Positions 34,380 to 40,454 of a DNA stretch of 64,000 bases are shown here, piece after piece (positions within the stretch are counted from its first letter, which is position 1; each line of letters begins with the position of its first letter). The DNA lies in NCBI RefSeq assembly GCF_000264945.2, contig NZ_CP013070.1:496001-560000 (forward strand), written 5' to 3'. This DNA comes from Sphingobium indicum B90A. GTDB taxonomy: Bacteria; Pseudomonadota; Alphaproteobacteria; Sphingomonadales; Sphingomonadaceae. Under the pieces are notes generated by a model, which worked only from the letters and a program-made list of their open reading frames with translations, was not told where the DNA came from and made no database searches. A program made the translations under genes and the position numbers.

Positions 34380-34871
34380 ATGTCCAGAATTTCACCCTGC
34401 CTGTGGTATAATGGGCAGGCGGAGGAAGCGGCGCGTTTCTACGTGTCGATCTTCGGCGGGTCGGTGGATTTCATCAACCGCTTTCCGCAGGACCAGCCCA
34501 CGCCCGCTCCGTTCAAGGGTGGGGACGTGCTGATGGTCGAATTCACCCTGTTCGGCGAGAGCTATCAGGCGCTGAACGGCGGGCCGAAATTCGGCTTTAC
34601 CGAAGCGGTGTCGCTGTCCGTCGCGTGCAGGGACCAGGCGGAGATCGACCGCTATTTCGACGCCCTGACCGCCGATGGCGGATCGCCGGGGCCGTGCGGC
34701 TGGCTGAAGGATAAATATGGCCTGTCCTGGCAGTTGGTGACGCAGGAGATCATGGACCTCTACAAGACGGGCGACGGGCCGGGCATCCAGCGGATGATGA
34801 CGGAGATGATGACCATGCAGAAGCTGGACACCGCCCGGATGAAGGCGGCCTTCGAAGGGGCCGCGTCATGA
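34380..34871 (+). CDS. PhnB-like VOC-family protein
   Basis: This 163-residue protein has the PhnB/3-demethylubiquinone-like VOC pattern: ISPCLWYNGQAEEAARFYVS, FGGSVDFINRFP, LNGGPKFGFTEAVSLSV and CGWLKDKYGLSWQLV. Despite the historical database label it is not a ubiquinone methyltransferase; no SAM site is present. Its role is unknown. Its stop overlaps the start of the SRPBCC gene (ATGA at 34868), so the two are translationally coupled. Confidence 0.9.
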   Translation: MSRISPCLWYNGQAEEAARFYVSIFGGSVDFINRFPQDQPTPAPFKGGDVLMVEFTLFGESYQALNGGPKFGFTEAVSLSVACRDQAEIDRYFDALTADGGSPGPCGWLKDKYGLSWQLVTQEIMDLYKTGDGPGIQRMMTEMMTMQKLDTARMKAAFEGAAS

Positions 34872-35335
34872 GCGCCGCCATATTCGAACTGTCGGTGACA
34901 TGCCATGTCGCCGCGCCGCGCGAGATTGCGTGGAAAGTGTGGACGGACCTGAAGGATCAATGGTTCTGCCCAAAGCCCTGGCGCGCCGAGGTGATCGAGG
35001 AGGATCTGCGCCCCGGCGGGCGGAGCGCGGTGCGCATGTTCGGTCCCGATGGCGAGGATACGGGGCCGATGGAGGGCGTGTTTCTGGAGGTCGTGCCGGG
35101 CGAGAAGGTGGTGACGACCGATGCCTATGCCTCCGGCTGGATACCGCAGACGCCGTTCATGACCGCGATCTGGAGCTTTGCCGACGAGGGGGAGGGGACG
35201 CGCTTCACCGCGACGGCACGGCATTGGGATGCCGAGGCGATGGAGAGGCACAAGGAAATGGGCTTCCATCCTGGGTGGGACCAGATGGCCGAGCAGTTCA
35301 AGACATTGTGCGAGGCTTCGACGGCGAGCGCGTAG
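34868..35335 (+). CDS. SRPBCC / AHSA1-type protein
   Basis: This 155-residue protein has the AHSA1 START-like fold: VTCHVAAPREIAWKVWTDLKDQW, DLRPGGRSAVRMFGPDGE, EVVPGEKVVTTDAY and FHPGWDQMAEQFKTL. These domains bind hydrophobic ligands or partner chaperones. As the last gene of the DUF1428-VOC-PhnB group it probably takes part in the same small-molecule process. A hairpin repeat (35366-35420) and a strong terminator (35532-35566) follow. Confidence 0.9.
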   Translation: MSAAIFELSVTCHVAAPREIAWKVWTDLKDQWFCPKPWRAEVIEEDLRPGGRSAVRMFGPDGEDTGPMEGVFLEVVPGEKVVTTDAYASGWIPQTPFMTAIWSFADEGEGTRFTATARHWDAEAMERHKEMGFHPGWDQMAEQFKTLCEASTASA

Positions 35336-35365
35336 GGAAGCGGCCAAGAGCGGGCCTATCCTGTT

Positions 35366-35420
35366 CCTCCCCATCGGGAGATGGGGAGGGGGACCGCCGC
35401 TGAAAGCGGTGGTGGAGGGG
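35366..35420. repeat. Palindromic intergenic repeat, family F
   Basis: CCTCCCCAT (35366-35374) pairs with ATGGGGAGG (35381-35389), followed at once by a second hairpin ACCGCCGCTGAAAGCGGTGGT. The remaining bases to 35530 show no gene. Confidence 0.65.
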
Positions 35421-35531
35421 AATGGGGCACAACCTGCGTATTTCCCCTCGACCATCGGCTGCGCCGACGTCGAAGAGAGTCAGTGCCACGCTGCGCGTAG
35501 GGAGGAATTGGCGTAAGTTTCGGTGCACAAG

Positions 35532-35566
35532 AAAAGGGCGCCCGGCTTGCACCGGACGCCCTTTTC
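35532..35566. terminator. Bidirectional terminator
   Basis: AAAAGGGCG-CCCGG pairs with CCGG-ACGCCCTTTT around CTTGCA, with A and T runs at the two ends. It serves both the SRPBCC operon (plus) and the aminotransferase gene (minus), whose ends face each other here. Confidence 0.85.
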
Positions 35567-35584
35567 TTTACCCTTCGGAAGCGA

Positions 35585-36754
35585 TCAGGCCTTGTAGACC
35601 TTCTCCACCGCCGAGCGGAATTTCGCCATGTCGTCGGCCGAACCCACGGTGACGCGGGAAACGGTGGGCCAGATCGGCCAGGCGCGGCCGATCTGCACCT
35701 TTTCCGGCGTGGCGAGCAAGGCGGCCTGCATCTCCTTCGCGGGCTTGGTCTTCCAGTCGACCATGAACATGTTGGCCTCGCTGCCGGCGTGCACCTCTAT
35801 GCCCTTCTTGGTAAGCCAGGCGATGGTTTCCTCCCGGTTCGCGATCATTTCGGCGCGGCGGGCCTTGATCAGGCCCGCTTCGGGATAGACCGCGTTGCCG
35901 CAGGCCATGGCGGTGATCGACAGGCCGCCCGCCGTGGGACCGAACAGGCTGATGCGCTTCTGCACTTCCGGATCGGCGAAGGTCAGGCCCAGCCGCACGC
36001 CCGCCATGCCGAACAGCTTGGAGAAGGTCCGCATGACGATCAGGTCCTTGCGGCCCGCCACCAGCTTCGCGGCGTTGGGGCCGTCATACCAGTGGATATA
36101 GGCTTCATCGACCAGCAGGAAGGAATCCTTGGGCTTGTTCGCCAGCAGCCATTCGATGTCGGCCATCGGCGTGATGGTGCCGGTCGGGTTGTTGGGCGTG
36201 CAGATATAGTAAAGCCCGGCATTGGGGTTGGCGGCCAGCATCGCCTTGACGTCATGGCCCTTGCCGATGGCCTGCGGCGCCTTCGCGATGGGGGCCTTCA
36301 GATAATCGGCGGTGCGCCAGGCGGATTCGAAGGTCGGATCGGCGGTGACCAGCCCCTTGGTGGGCGAGCAGAAGGCCGCGACCGTGCTGACCAGCGGGCC
36401 GCCCGAACCGGGCCACAGCATGATGTGGGATTCAGGAATGCCCTCCACCTTGGCGATGGTGGCGATCAGGTCGCCCTTGTAATTGTCCGGATCATACCAG
36501 TTGCCGACCGCGGCGGCCTTCGCGGCGGCCTGCACGCCCGGCTCGAACGGGCCGGTCCAGCATTCGTTGGCGCCGATGCGCACCGCGCCCTTGATCCCGC
36601 GGGAGGCCTGCTGCTGCGCGAAGGCGGGTTGGATCAACAGGTTGCCGGCCGCCGCGCCGGCAGCCATCAGGGCGGAAATCCTGCCGATCGTGCGGCGGGA
36701 ATAGCCCCGCTCCAGCAGGTCTTCGCGGGCGTCCTTTTCCAACATCATGGTCAT
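35585..36754 (-). CDS. Tat-exported PLP-dependent aminotransferase, copy 1
   Basis: This 389-residue class I/II aminotransferase resembles histidinol-phosphate aminotransferases. The PLP lysine is K246 in RTFSKLFGMAG; TPNNPTG (187-193) and LVDEAYIHW (Asp216) are also present. Unlike cytoplasmic relatives it begins with a twin-arginine signal: SRRTIGR at residues 19-25, a hydrophobic stretch, and PAFA before QQQ (cleavage near 46). Tat exports folded proteins, so a cofactor-loaded enzyme in the periplasm is plausible. ATG 36754 has GGGGAA 8 bases upstream. A paralogue with the same layout lies just upstream on the same strand. HisC function is unlikely because histidine synthesis is cytoplasmic. 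Substrate unknown. Confidence 0.87.
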   Translation of the reverse strand: MTMMLEKDAREDLLERGYSRRTIGRISALMAAGAAAGNLLIQPAFAQQQASRGIKGAVRIGANECWTGPFEPGVQAAAKAAAVGNWYDPDNYKGDLIATIAKVEGIPESHIMLWPGSGGPLVSTVAAFCSPTKGLVTADPTFESAWRTADYLKAPIAKAPQAIGKGHDVKAMLAANPNAGLYYICTPNNPTGTITPMADIEWLLANKPKDSFLLVDEAYIHWYDGPNAAKLVAGRKDLIVMRTFSKLFGMAGVRLGLTFADPEVQKRISLFGPTAGGLSITAMACGNAVYPEAGLIKARRAEMIANREETIAWLTKKGIEVHAGSEANMFMVDWKTKPAKEMQAALLATPEKVQIGRAWPIWPTVSRVTVGSADDMAKFRSAVEKVYKA

Positions 36755-36811
36755 GTCGTCTGTTCCCCTAATTGTTCCACCAACTGCGCATATTCCACGG
36801 GGAGAAACGAA

Positions 36812-36844
36812 GGAGGCGGCGCATTTCCGCAATGCGCCGCCTCC
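36812..36844. terminator. Strong hairpin between the two aminotransferase genes
   Basis: GGAGGCGGCGCATT (36812-36825) pairs perfectly with AATGCGCCGCCTCC (36831-36844) around a 5-base loop. The T run after it on the minus strand is poor, so it may be an attenuator or stability element that lowers expression of copy 1 from a shared transcript. Confidence 0.55.
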
Positions 36845-36876
36845 CGATTTCCGAAATTTTGAGCGGTCAGGCCGGA

Positions 36877-38034
36877 TCAGGCCTTCCACACCCTGTCGAC
36901 GGCGTCGCAAAAGGCCTTCATCTCCTCGGCGGAGCCGACGGAGACGCGGGACACGTTCGGCCAGATCGGCCAGTTGCGCCCGATCTGCACCTTTTCGGCC
37001 AGGAGCGCGGCCTGCATTTCCTTGGCGGGCTTGCCCCAGTCGACCATGAACATGTTGGCATGGCTGCCCGGAATGACCTTGATCCCCTTCTTCTTGAGAT
37101 GGGCGACGGCCATTTCGCGGTTGGCGTTCATTTCGGCGCGGCGCGCCTTGATGAGGTCGGCCTGGGTCACCGACACCGTGCCGCAGGCGACGGCGGTCAT
37201 CGGCAGCATCGCCGTCACCTGGCCGCCGTCATAGCGCATCATCTTTTCCATGATGGCGGGGCTGGAGAAGGTGAGGCCCAGGCGCATGCCCGCCATGCCG
37301 AACAGCTTGGAGAAGGTGCGCAGGATCAGCACGTCGTCGCGGGTCGCCGCCATCTTCGCGGCGTTGGGGCCGTCGAACCAGTGGATATAGGCTTCGTCGA
37401 CGACCAGGATCGCGTCCTTGGGCTTGTTGTCGGCCAGCCACTGGATGTCGGCGAGCGAGGTCATCGTGCCGCTGGGGTTGTTGGGCGAGCAGATGTAATA
37501 GACCCCCGCATTGGGGTCCGCCGCCAGCATCGCCTTCACGTCATGGGCGTAATCCTTGGTCAGCGGCACCTTCGTCACTTTCGCGCCCAGCCACTCGCCG
37601 GTGCGCCAGATGGCTTCATAGGTGGGATTGCCGGTCACGATGCCGCGCGTGGGCGAGGCATAGGCGACGGCGACGCGGCTCAACGGATCGCTGGAGCCGG
37701 GCCAGGCGGTGATGCGGTCGGCGGGAATGCCCTCCACCGAGGAGACGGCGGCGAACAGCTTGGCATGTTCGTCATTGGGTTCGTAGCGATTACCTTCCTG
37801 CACCAGCTTGAAGGCGGCTTCGGCGGCGACGGGGAAGGGGCCGGTCCAGCATTCATTGGCGCCGATGCGCACGGCGCCCTCGACCGCCTTGGCGGCCTGC
37901 TGCGCCATGGCGCCGGTGACGCGCAGGGCGGCCGCGCCCGCGCCCAGCAGGGCAGCGACCTTGCCCATCTGACGGCGGGAATAGCCCCGCTCGATCAAAT
38001 CCTGTTCGAAGGCCTTGTTTTCGATTTCTGCCAT
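36877..38034 (-). CDS. Tat-exported PLP-dependent aminotransferase, copy 2
   Basis: This 385-residue paralogue of the next gene has the same parts: twin-arginine motif SRRQMGK (19-25), hydrophobic core, AMA before QQ (cleavage near 44), SPNNPSG, VVDEAYIHW and the PLP lysine K243 in RTFSKLFGMAG. The two proteins share long blocks such as VRIGANECWTGPF and PNVSRVSVGSA versus PTVSRVTVGSA, so they arose by duplication. It differs mainly around residues 75-120, in the region that usually sets substrate choice. It is the promoter-proximal gene and is divergent from ptsP. Substrate unknown. Confidence 0.87.
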   Translation of the reverse strand: MAEIENKAFEQDLIERGYSRRQMGKVAALLGAGAAALRVTGAMAQQAAKAVEGAVRIGANECWTGPFPVAAEAAFKLVQEGNRYEPNDEHAKLFAAVSSVEGIPADRITAWPGSSDPLSRVAVAYASPTRGIVTGNPTYEAIWRTGEWLGAKVTKVPLTKDYAHDVKAMLAADPNAGVYYICSPNNPSGTMTSLADIQWLADNKPKDAILVVDEAYIHWFDGPNAAKMAATRDDVLILRTFSKLFGMAGMRLGLTFSSPAIMEKMMRYDGGQVTAMLPMTAVACGTVSVTQADLIKARRAEMNANREMAVAHLKKKGIKVIPGSHANMFMVDWGKPAKEMQAALLAEKVQIGRNWPIWPNVSRVSVGSAEEMKAFCDAVDRVWKA

Positions 38035-38140
38035 ATGCTCATCTCCCTGAATCCTGAGATTTTACGGCTGTAAACGAAAGCATCGTTCATTTCCGCCATG
38101 TCCGTCCAGGGAAAATCCGCCGGAACCGCACATATTCGCC

Positions 38141-38169
38141 TTGGAAAGCGGCGGCGCGATCTGTTAGCG
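38141..38169 (+). promoter_or_regulatory. Candidate promoter for ptsP
   Basis: TTGGAA at 38141-38146 and TTAGCG at 38164-38169 are 17 bases apart, ending 8 bases before the ptsP start, so the mRNA would be nearly leaderless. Consensus match only. Confidence 0.3.
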
Positions 38170-38177
38170 CTTGACCC

Positions 38178-40454
38178 ATGCCCAGCACGCCCGCCGCCGC
38201 CGCCCGCCAGATCCTCACCCGCCTGCAGGAGGTGATGGCGGCGCGCACCAGCGCGCAGGCGAAGCTGAACAAGGTGGTGGAGATCATCGGGCAATCGCTG
38301 TCGAGCGAGGTCTGCTCCATCTATCTGGTGCGCGAAGGGCTGCTGGAACTGTTCGCGACGCGGGGCTTGAAGCAGGAGGCCGTCCACGTCACCCGCATGG
38401 CGATGGGCGAGGGGCTGGTCGGCATGATCGCCACCAATGTCGAGACGCTGAACCTGGACGAGGCGGCCTCGCACCCCGACTACAGCTATCGCCCGGAAAC
38501 GGGGGAGGAACTGTTCCACAGCTTTGCCGGCGTGCCCATCGTGCGGCGGGAACGCGCCATCGGCGTGCTGTGCGTCCAGCATGTCGAGCCGCGCCGCTAT
38601 GAGGAGGTGGAGATCGAGGCGCTCCAGACCGTGGCGATGGTGCTGTCCGAACTGATCGCCAATGCGGAACTGGCCGATGACGGCCCGCTGGACAGCCGGG
38701 TGCAGGACACGGGCAGCACGGTGCTGCACGGATTGCAGCTCGTCATGGGCATGGCGCGGGGGCATGCCGTGTTCCACCAGCCGCGCGTCCATATCGAACA
38801 TACCGTCGCCGAGGATACGGAGGCGGAGCGCGCCCGCGTCATTTCCGCCTTCGCCAAGATGCGCGAGCAGATCGACCGCATGACGGGGGCGGCCGAATTC
38901 GGCACGGAGGGCGAGCATCAGGAGGTGCTCGAAACCTACAAGATGTTCGCCTATGACGAAGGGTGGATCAGGCGGATCAACGAGGCGATCGACAGCGGCC
39001 TGACCGCCGAGGCCGCGATCGAGCGCGTGCAGCAGCGCACCCGGATGCGCATGCGGCAGATCGACGATCCGCTGCTCCAGGACCGGATGCACGACCTGGA
39101 GGACATGGCGAACCGCCTGCTGCGGATCGTGTCGGGGCAGCTGGGGACGGCGGCGCAACTGGGATTGCGGCAGGACGCCATATTGATCGCGCGCAACCTG
39201 GGGCCTGCGGAACTGCTGGAATATGACCGGCGGCGGCTGAAGGGCGTGATCCTGGAGGAAGGATCGCTGACCGCCCATGTCACCATCGTCGCCCGCGCCA
39301 TGGGCGTGCCGGTGCTGGGCCGCGTGCGCGACATCCGGCATCAGGTGAACGAGGGCGACCTGATCCTGATGGACGTGGGCGCCAACGCCCTGCTGATCCG
39401 CCCGACGTCCGACATGGACGAGGCGTTCGAGAACAGGCTGCACGTCACGCAGAAGCGCCGGGCCGAATTCGCGGCGATGCGCGACCTGCCGTCCGTCACC
39501 ATCGACGGCCAGCGGATCGAATTGATGGTGAACGCCGGCCTGCGGGAGGATGCGCAGGCGCTGGACCTGGTGGGCGCGGACGGCATCGGCCTGTTCCGCA
39601 CCGAATTCCAGTTCCTGGTTTCCGCCACCCTGCCGCAGCGGGAAAAGCAGCAGCGGCTCTACCGCGACGTGCTGGACGCGGCGGGCGACCGGCCGGTCGT
39701 CTTCCGCACGGTCGACATCGGCGGGGACAAGGCATTGCCCTATATGGCCCGCGACGCGGAGGAGGAGCTGGAGGACAATCCCGCCATGGGCTGGCGCGCG
39801 CTGCGGCTGGCGCTGGACCGGGATGGCCTCATGAAGGCGCAGGCCCGCGCCCTGCTGGAGGCGGCGGCGGGCAAGGTGCTGCACGTCATGTTCCCGATGG
39901 TGTCGGAACCCTGGGAATATGAGCAGGCCCGCGCCCTGGTGGAACATCAGCGCGAATGGCTGGTGGCGCAGAAGAAGAAGCTGCCGGTCGCCGTGCGTTA
40001 CGGCGCGATGCTGGAGGTGCCCGCTTTGGCGGAGGTGCTGGACCTGCTGCTGCCCAGGCTGGATTTCCTGTCCATCGGCACCAACGACCTGACGCAGTTC
40101 CTGTTCGCCGCCGACCGCGCCCACCCACGGCTGGCGGAGCGCTACGACTGGCTGAGCATCGCCATATTGCGTTTCCTGGACCGCGTGGTGCGCGCCTGCG
40201 AAGACCATGAGGTGCCGGTGGGCGTGTGCGGCGAGATGGGGGGGCGCACGCTGGAGGCGATGGCGCTGATCGGCCTGGGCGTGCGGCGCCTGTCGATCAC
40301 GCCGGCCTCGGTCGGACCCGTGAAGGCGATGATCCGCACCGTCGACGCGGCGGAATTGCGCCGGTTCATGCGCGATCTGCTGGACAAGGGGGTAACGGAT
40401 ATTCGTTCGGCGCTGGTCGACTGGGCCGGCGAACATGCTATTGAATTGAATTAA
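38178..40454 (+). CDS. ptsP: Nitrogen-PTS enzyme I (PtsP)
   Basis: This 758-residue protein has an N-terminal GAF domain (about 20-165) followed by the full enzyme I architecture: swivelling His domain with the phospho-His367 (GSLTAHVTIVARAMG), then the PEP-binding barrel with GLFRTEFQFL, GGDKALPY, IGTNDLTQF and Cys684 in GVCGEMGG. It transfers phosphate from PEP to NPr and on to EIIA-Ntr, a regulatory relay for nitrogen, potassium and carbon state, not sugar uptake. The GAF domain is the sensory input. NPr and EIIA genes are not in the window. Confidence 0.96.
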   Translation: MPSTPAAAARQILTRLQEVMAARTSAQAKLNKVVEIIGQSLSSEVCSIYLVREGLLELFATRGLKQEAVHVTRMAMGEGLVGMIATNVETLNLDEAASHPDYSYRPETGEELFHSFAGVPIVRRERAIGVLCVQHVEPRRYEEVEIEALQTVAMVLSELIANAELADDGPLDSRVQDTGSTVLHGLQLVMGMARGHAVFHQPRVHIEHTVAEDTEAERARVISAFAKMREQIDRMTGAAEFGTEGEHQEVLETYKMFAYDEGWIRRINEAIDSGLTAEAAIERVQQRTRMRMRQIDDPLLQDRMHDLEDMANRLLRIVSGQLGTAAQLGLRQDAILIARNLGPAELLEYDRRRLKGVILEEGSLTAHVTIVARAMGVPVLGRVRDIRHQVNEGDLILMDVGANALLIRPTSDMDEAFENRLHVTQKRRAEFAAMRDLPSVTIDGQRIELMVNAGLREDAQALDLVGADGIGLFRTEFQFLVSATLPQREKQQRLYRDVLDAAGDRPVVFRTVDIGGDKALPYMARDAEEELEDNPAMGWRALRLALDRDGLMKAQARALLEAAAGKVLHVMFPMVSEPWEYEQARALVEHQREWLVAQKKKLPVAVRYGAMLEVPALAEVLDLLLPRLDFLSIGTNDLTQFLFAADRAHPRLAERYDWLSIAILRFLDRVVRACEDHEVPVGVCGEMGGRTLEAMALIGLGVRRLSITPASVGPVKAMIRTVDAAELRRFMRDLLDKGVTDIRSALVDWAGEHAIELN

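Follow-up and report, generated by a model that had tools for sequence, protein, structure and literature searches.

A conserved tandem of predicted periplasmic transaminases in Sphingobium and its association with an unlinked TauE/SafE permease gene

Two adjacent genes of Sphingobium indicum B90A, here called B and A, encode related PLP transaminases that begin with Tat-type export signals, and across the genus they are, with few exceptions, kept or lost together with the gene for a TauE/SafE permease that lies 2.2 Mb away. Joint keeping and loss with so distant a gene suggests that the pair and the permease work as one functional unit. We propose a periplasmic transamination-plus-transport module, in which the Tat-exported enzymes B and A would depend on the TauE/SafE permease and A would act on a different but related substrate, and we put the probability of this reading at about 0.55, somewhat better than even. 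The proposal draws on what can be read from the sequences themselves, namely the export signals, the active-site residues, the conserved tandem, the adjacency of permease and transaminase in relatives, and the repeated absence of the transaminases together with the permease. What is new here, and what a specialist would not expect, is the link to an unlinked permease together with the derived nature of the second enzyme.

Results

The gene pair and its family

The window, a stretch of 64,000 nucleotides (G000:C1:496001-560000) from a genome (G000) of 3.9 Mb, carries both genes on the minus strand, where the preliminary description had located them (Table 1). Gene B starts at ATG 38034. For gene A, the ATG at 36754, which has AGGGG about 10 nt upstream, is preferred over the TTG at 36910 of the mechanical open reading frame. 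Beyond the AHSA1/SRPBCC gene, on the same flank of the pair, lies a glyoxalase gene. The ptsP and AHSA1 genes mark a conserved site, and ptsP itself is outside the proposed function.

Table 1. Features of the gene pair and its flanks, in window coordinates.
Feature	Position	Strand	Description
AHSA1/SRPBCC gene	34868..35335	+	PF08327; neighbour on the gene A side
Terminator-like hairpin	35537..35553	-	Follows gene A; 5 pairs, matching the consensus weakly
Gene A	35585..36754	-	Tat-signal PLP transaminase, 389 aa; NF006580 512.3 bits, PF00155, signal; loops GSGGPLVS and LFG, derived type and fixed differently from B
Conserved hairpin	36811..36845	-	B-A intergenic, leader of A (or terminator of B); 15 pairs
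Gene B	36877..38034	-	Tat-signal PLP transaminase, 385 aa; NF006580 512.6 bits, PF00155, signal; loops GSSDPLSR and RYDG, ancestral type
ptsP	38178..40454	+	Divergent neighbour of gene B; PEP-utilising enzyme and GAF domains

Both proteins match PF00155 (class I/II PLP transaminase) and pass the 444-bit cut-off of NF006580 (PRK09105), in agreement with the paralogy first claimed for them. The NF006580 model names no substrate, location or partner, and the tandem arrangement, the TauE link and the derived loops of A are not part of it. The earlier label 'HisC-like' is correct for the fold only: the nearest solved structures are of the HisC type (3ly1 and others), but as to family both A (158.5 bits) and B (198.3 bits) fall below the HisC cut-off of TIGR01141 (276.55 bits), and the genome has a better HisC candidate (L004/L011), in which no Tat signal is seen by eye. 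The 500-bit cut-off of NF051461, the PtaA equivalog model, is likewise missed (A 298.4, B 311). Among gene B's best protein matches, those bearing an organism name come from Sphingobium, at 92-93% identity.

Export signals and active site

The preliminary description had recognised Tat signals on both proteins, and the motifs are indeed present. B carries GYSRRQMGK and A carries GYSRRTIGR, and in both proteins a stretch free of charged residues and then an Ala-x-Ala site come next. Chance does not account for the signals: one of Tat type was flagged in 153 of 156 homologous hits from the fetched loci by a permissive regular expression, which flagged the one cytosolic HisC control too; several of these loci overlap, so that the hits represent fewer independent genes. 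Orthologues that all start after the signal region had been named as the observation that would speak against export, and this is not what is found, nearly all relatives carrying the signal. Among the 13 other PF00155 matches in the genome, the eight N-termini inspected lack a Tat-like signal by eye. TatC is encoded at G000:C1:158108-158755 (PF00902, 240 bits). An S-R-R motif, a hydrophobic stretch, an Ala-x-Ala site and a host TatC are the marks of a Tat substrate, and as these marks are present for both proteins, their export is predicted.

The PLP active site had been described as complete. In an alignment of 24 sequences that includes PtaA, the residues N60, Y84, G113-S114, N185, D213, Y216, S242-K243 and R251 (B numbering) are invariant, and R363 is conserved in at least 90% of the 24 aligned relatives. 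Catalytic activity of both A and B is predicted from this intact site.

Distribution of the tandem

A homologue at E<=1e-40 occurs in 68 of the 94 genomes of the genus. A gene B orthologue (at least 76% identity) is present in 51 of the 94, each time together with an A-type gene, and in 50 the A-type gene comes directly after B on its strand, the matched parts being 134-382 bp apart; in G170 they lie on different contigs. The other 17 of the 68 genomes with homologues have no B. In the tandem loci fetched, the pair sits beside ptsP, for which there is one match in 92 of the 94 genomes, a match in two pieces in one and none in one. The tandem is old and has been kept.

Outside the genus the distribution is patchy: the NF006580 cut-off is passed in 8 of 149 genomes of the family, and matches at E<=1e-75 are found in 7 of 196 genomes of the order and 5 of 398 of the phylum, each of these counts including the window's own genome. 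Periplasmic transamination had been called rare, a statement that stands across the phylum and does not stand within the genus.

A TauE/SafE permease gene adjoins related transaminases

At 20 of 73 non-tandem loci, a gene for a TauE/SafE permease (PF01925) adjoins the transaminase gene. The neighbourhood gene calls were crude, with some genes mis-framed, and the TauE counts were taken from tblastn instead. Nineteen of the 20 came from an adjacency script and L309, also among the 73, was added separately; the count left out L144 (short), L011 (the HisC control) and the loci below L087. Of the 36 loci in the B/A group, 11 show this adjacency; among the 37 remaining loci the figure is 9, chiefly from a sister subfamily whose members likewise bear Tat signals. 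Permease and transaminase genes share a strand in 18 of these 20 cases, the matched parts being separated by 9-152 bp, whereas L119 and L120 have them on opposite strands at a distance of 289-296 bp. Not all of these loci are independent: L111 and L143 share a neighbourhood, and L123 and L309 encode transaminases with 97% identity. Seven of the 11 TauE-linked B/A loci also contain a match to a TonB-dependent receptor (L106, L107, L111, L119, L120, L139 and L143). There was no TauE match within the fetched stretch at 53 of the 73 non-tandem loci, and none beside the transaminase at any of the 19 tandem loci or at L193-L197, the five loci whose PtaA exceeds the cut-off.

In the genome of the window itself, the permease gene is at G000:C1:2711987-2712814, beside a gene for alanine dehydrogenase; of 30 TauE loci examined, 20 have this dehydrogenase as neighbour of the permease gene. 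The encoded permease is 60% identical to the TauE protein of L107 and scores 137.5 bits against PF01925, for which the cut-off is 32.6; the permeases of four relatives, scored in the same way, also reach it. A search of open-licence papers found no literature linking TauE to a periplasmic transaminase, or on these Sphingobium genes.

Several other genes were seen in these neighbourhoods. In G559, a TatC-like gene recognised by eye (L209:4033-4794, minus strand) is found some 2.5 kb away from TauE and a Tat transaminase of the sister subfamily. Downstream of TauE in the genome of the window, a gene at L192:7420-7920 (minus strand) encodes a small, probably secreted protein with no Pfam match, which is kept beside alanine dehydrogenase in G164, where TauE has been lost. 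In three genomes, the sister-subfamily transaminases (L147, L148 and L150) follow an alpha/beta hydrolase-like gene and a larger conserved gene (both by eye) and not TauE.

Joint inheritance of the pair and the distant permease gene

Across the 94 genomes of the genus, TauE (E<=1e-50) was found in 69 and the transaminase in 68, such that 67 genomes have both, 24 have neither and 3 are discordant (Fisher p 5.4e-19). The discordant genomes are G185, which has the transaminase only, and G144 and G174, which have TauE only; in the latter two, a sister-subfamily Tat transaminase adjoins that TauE (L123, L309). G185 is also without the alanine dehydrogenase that flanks TauE, and its missing TauE may reflect a gap, which is only one possibility, or a larger deletion; G186, G197, G202 and G212 lack the dehydrogenase too, yet have TauE.

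Since the species are related, a ptsP tree was built for 88 of the 94 genomes. The six outside it, all with both genes, are G210 (no ptsP match), G186 (ptsP in two pieces), G225, G227, G238 and G239. Fitch counts on this tree give 6 changes for the transaminase and 8 for TauE. Within a core clade of 62 tips, the transaminases are missing in four places, namely G164, G201, G235 and a clade of four, and TauE is missing in those same four places and in G185; next to G164, to G201 and to G235, the sister tip carries both genes in each case (support 0.996-1.0). For this coincidence of losses, the hypergeometric p is 5.7e-7 over 122 branches, on the assumption of an equal chance of loss per branch.

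In all seven genomes of co-loss, the site between ptsP and AHSA1 has closed to 77-239 bp and the two genes abut, and at the six TauE sites fetched from co-loss genomes, alanine dehydrogenase is kept and TauE is gone. The dehydrogenase is present in all seven co-loss genomes of the core clade, so that general decay is not what is seen. Having been kept in all seven genomes without TauE and the transaminases, alanine dehydrogenase was rejected as a member of the unit and serves as a control; alanine is a possible amino donor. Co-loss can also mean that the genes share a wider pathway without direct contact.

Gene A is the copy that changed

Mean identity is 84% within A and 85% within B, compared with 59% between them (33 A and 32 B distinct sequences). 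In the tree, A and B belong to two older clades, each of which holds TauE-linked single relatives (L106, L107, L121 and L137 in the B clade; L119, L120 and L139 in the A clade), the inner support of the A clade being partly low. The pair is therefore not a recent local duplication, and duplication for dosage is ruled out by these identities together with the separate clades.

Under a 95% rule, 34 alignment columns are fixed differently in A and B, including 4 in which one of the two has a gap. Many of these differences lie at 115-126, where B has GSSDPLSR and A has GSGGPLVS, and at 267-276, where RYDGGQVTAML in B faces LFGPTAGGL in A. By analogy with HisC, we take the loops to be near the PLP phosphate and the active-site entrance. 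In the inspected relatives outside the Sphingobium A group, the TauE-linked ones among them, the older state of GS[SG]DPL with RYDG is found wherever both motifs are readable, with L131 as an exception at the second loop; L142 is readable at the first loop only. The A gene of L101 also retains GSGDPLVR and RYDG. Thus, A is the copy that changed. The fixed loop changes support two different enzymes over dosage copies, and we think that they signify a substrate shift in A. Where A stands without B, the A-type gene with changed loops remains in all five loci inspected (L124, L125, L126, L138 and L145), and the genomes of these loci (G199, G192, G169, G186 and G150) have TauE.

A conserved hairpin between B and A

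A strong hairpin between the copies had been noted from the start and is borne out here, the intergenic RNA folding with z = -3.56 (Table 1). Of the 19 tandem loci, 16 (all but L100, L101 and L146) have its core motif ahead of gene A, as do two of the five loci with A but no B (present in L125 and L138; absent from L124, L126 and L145). When a single genome of each species was scanned with the pattern, 37 stretches came up. Twenty-eight of them are at transaminase genes more than 70% identical to A or B, in records titled either Sphingobium or as bins with no name or one of higher rank, and the other nine, from unrelated taxa, have no such transaminase gene.

The stem shows base-pair exchanges, and its covariation score exceeds that of all 500 shuffles. 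Measures of covariation are nevertheless mixed: cells changed on both sides number 10 against 5.0 in shuffles, but the pairs changed on both sides number 3, no more than in shuffles (3.1). The hairpin was not recognised as a known RNA, there being no Rfam match at gathering level in 35300-38300. It is possibly a terminator of B, for which its T-tract is weak, and a role in the expression of gene A is possible as well. A second helix, which would mask the ribosome-binding site of gene A, is paired in no more than 65% of cells and is not claimed. In L096, the region between the two genes holds, in addition to the leader hairpin, a very long, near-perfect inverted repeat (predicted energy -157 kcal/mol for 234 nt), perhaps an inserted repeat.

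Discussion

We envisage that B and A are folded, loaded with PLP and exported to the periplasm by Tat, as their signals, the TatC of the host and the precedent of PtaA suggest. Judging by their family and intact active site, they would catalyse amino-group transfer there, with an alpha-amino compound and a 2-oxo acid as partners. The TauE/SafE permease of the inner membrane would carry one of the small organic anions involved, importing the oxo-acid product or exporting the amino acceptor; it is adjacency in relatives and joint loss that point to this partner. A TonB-dependent receptor, where one stands beside the enzymes in relatives, may bring the substrate across the outer membrane. The altered loops of A lead us to propose a different but related substrate for that enzyme, and the leader hairpin may set its expression apart from that of B. 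It is tempting to go further and to see a hitherto undescribed system for scavenging amino compounds, with a TonB-dependent receptor in some of the species, in which the amino group would be removed before the carbon skeleton enters the cytoplasm, the carrier closing an oxo-acid cycle, with the second enzyme of Sphingobium switched in substrate and under the control of its own leader RNA; this elaboration is possible but tentative.

Periplasmic transamination has a precedent, since PtaA of pyoverdine-producing Pseudomonas is exported by Tat; PMC6206403 describes it as a periplasmic PLP transaminase that converts a glutamate residue of pyoverdine to alpha-ketoglutarate. PtaA and the pair have in common the PLP superfamily, all catalytic residues in the alignment and a Tat-type signal. 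They differ in that L193 and L197 are only 36-39% identical to gene B, and in that PtaA is a single-copy gene in its five loci. PvdN belongs to another PLP class than A and B. It resembles what is predicted for them in being, according to PMC6206403, a folded PLP enzyme of pyoverdine maturation that is exported by Tat and acts in the periplasm. As for the partner permease, it passes the Pfam cut-off of the TauE/SafE (TSUP) family, of which the characterised members move sulfite, sulfoacetate or sulfate (PMC11535334).

The resemblance to PtaA raises the prospect of tailoring, whereby one amino acid within a peptide or siderophore would be converted during periplasmic passage and TonB-dependent receptors would retake the finished product. 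PtaA is the nearest characterised family (298-311 bits) and is said, in PMC6206403, to occur in species making no pyoverdine, and TonB-dependent receptors stand beside part of the relatives. Yet both A and B score below the PtaA cut-off, no peptide synthetase was noticed next to the loci among the part of the neighbours run against Pfam, and the TauE link would go unexplained, the five PtaA loci having no adjoining TauE; we consider tailoring unlikely. A different objection concerns the permease link itself. Pair and TauE might have been lost together merely as members of dispensable, niche-related gene sets, with no joint work, a reading consistent with their distance from one another in tandem genomes, and co-loss alone fits it as readily as it fits cooperation. 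What tells against it is that TauE adjoins the transaminase in 20 of 73 loci, mostly closely and on the same strand, that both are found side by side in G197 and in G144/G174 amid genomes without both, and that the genes flanking both loci are kept where pair and TauE have been lost. Mere dispensability thus appears very improbable.

Two further proposals concern the substrate. Because characterised TauE-family proteins move sulfur oxyanions and a sulfonate (PMC11535334), a sulfonated amino acid such as cysteate may be regarded as a serious candidate, and TauE would then carry the sulfonated oxo acid, a special case of the transamination-plus-transport module. However, sulfur-metabolism genes were not noticed to recur in the neighbourhoods, for which the gene calls were crude, and in so diverse a family the name of the permease does not fix its substrate, such that this particular route seems decidedly unlikely. 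Least probable of all is a 'hidden overflow pathway', in which phenylpyruvate or 4-hydroxyphenylpyruvate, formed by exported chorismate mutase and cyclohexadienyl dehydratase, would yield phenylalanine or tyrosine. A route with an exported aromatic aminotransferase has been proposed for P. aeruginosa, according to PMC10520331, and one source names the relative P0114 a 'periplasmic aromatic amino acid aminotransferase beta precursor', but neither chorismate mutase nor cyclohexadienyl dehydratase was noticed to recur among the neighbours of the loci.

We return to a transamination-plus-transport module as the preferred reading, under which the TauE/SafE permease is the best clue to the needs of a periplasmic transaminase. 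To our knowledge, how such an enzyme gets and recycles its oxo-acid partner has been a standing question ever since PtaA was described. The permease, lost time and again along with the enzymes despite the distance of its gene, provides a concrete test gene for this question, and L107 and L123, in which enzyme and permease adjoin, offer compact units for expression. The pair is also a natural experiment on substrate change, for the loops of A are altered and B and most inspected single-copy relatives keep the older state.

Some Sphingobium genomes possess extra transaminase copies (L127-L130 and L133-L135), whose signal ends in ...WAQRNDGP and which are not near TauE. They lie near an asparaginase-domain protein (PF00710) and pyrroline-5-carboxylate reductase (PF14748), as named by a Pfam scan of L129 only.
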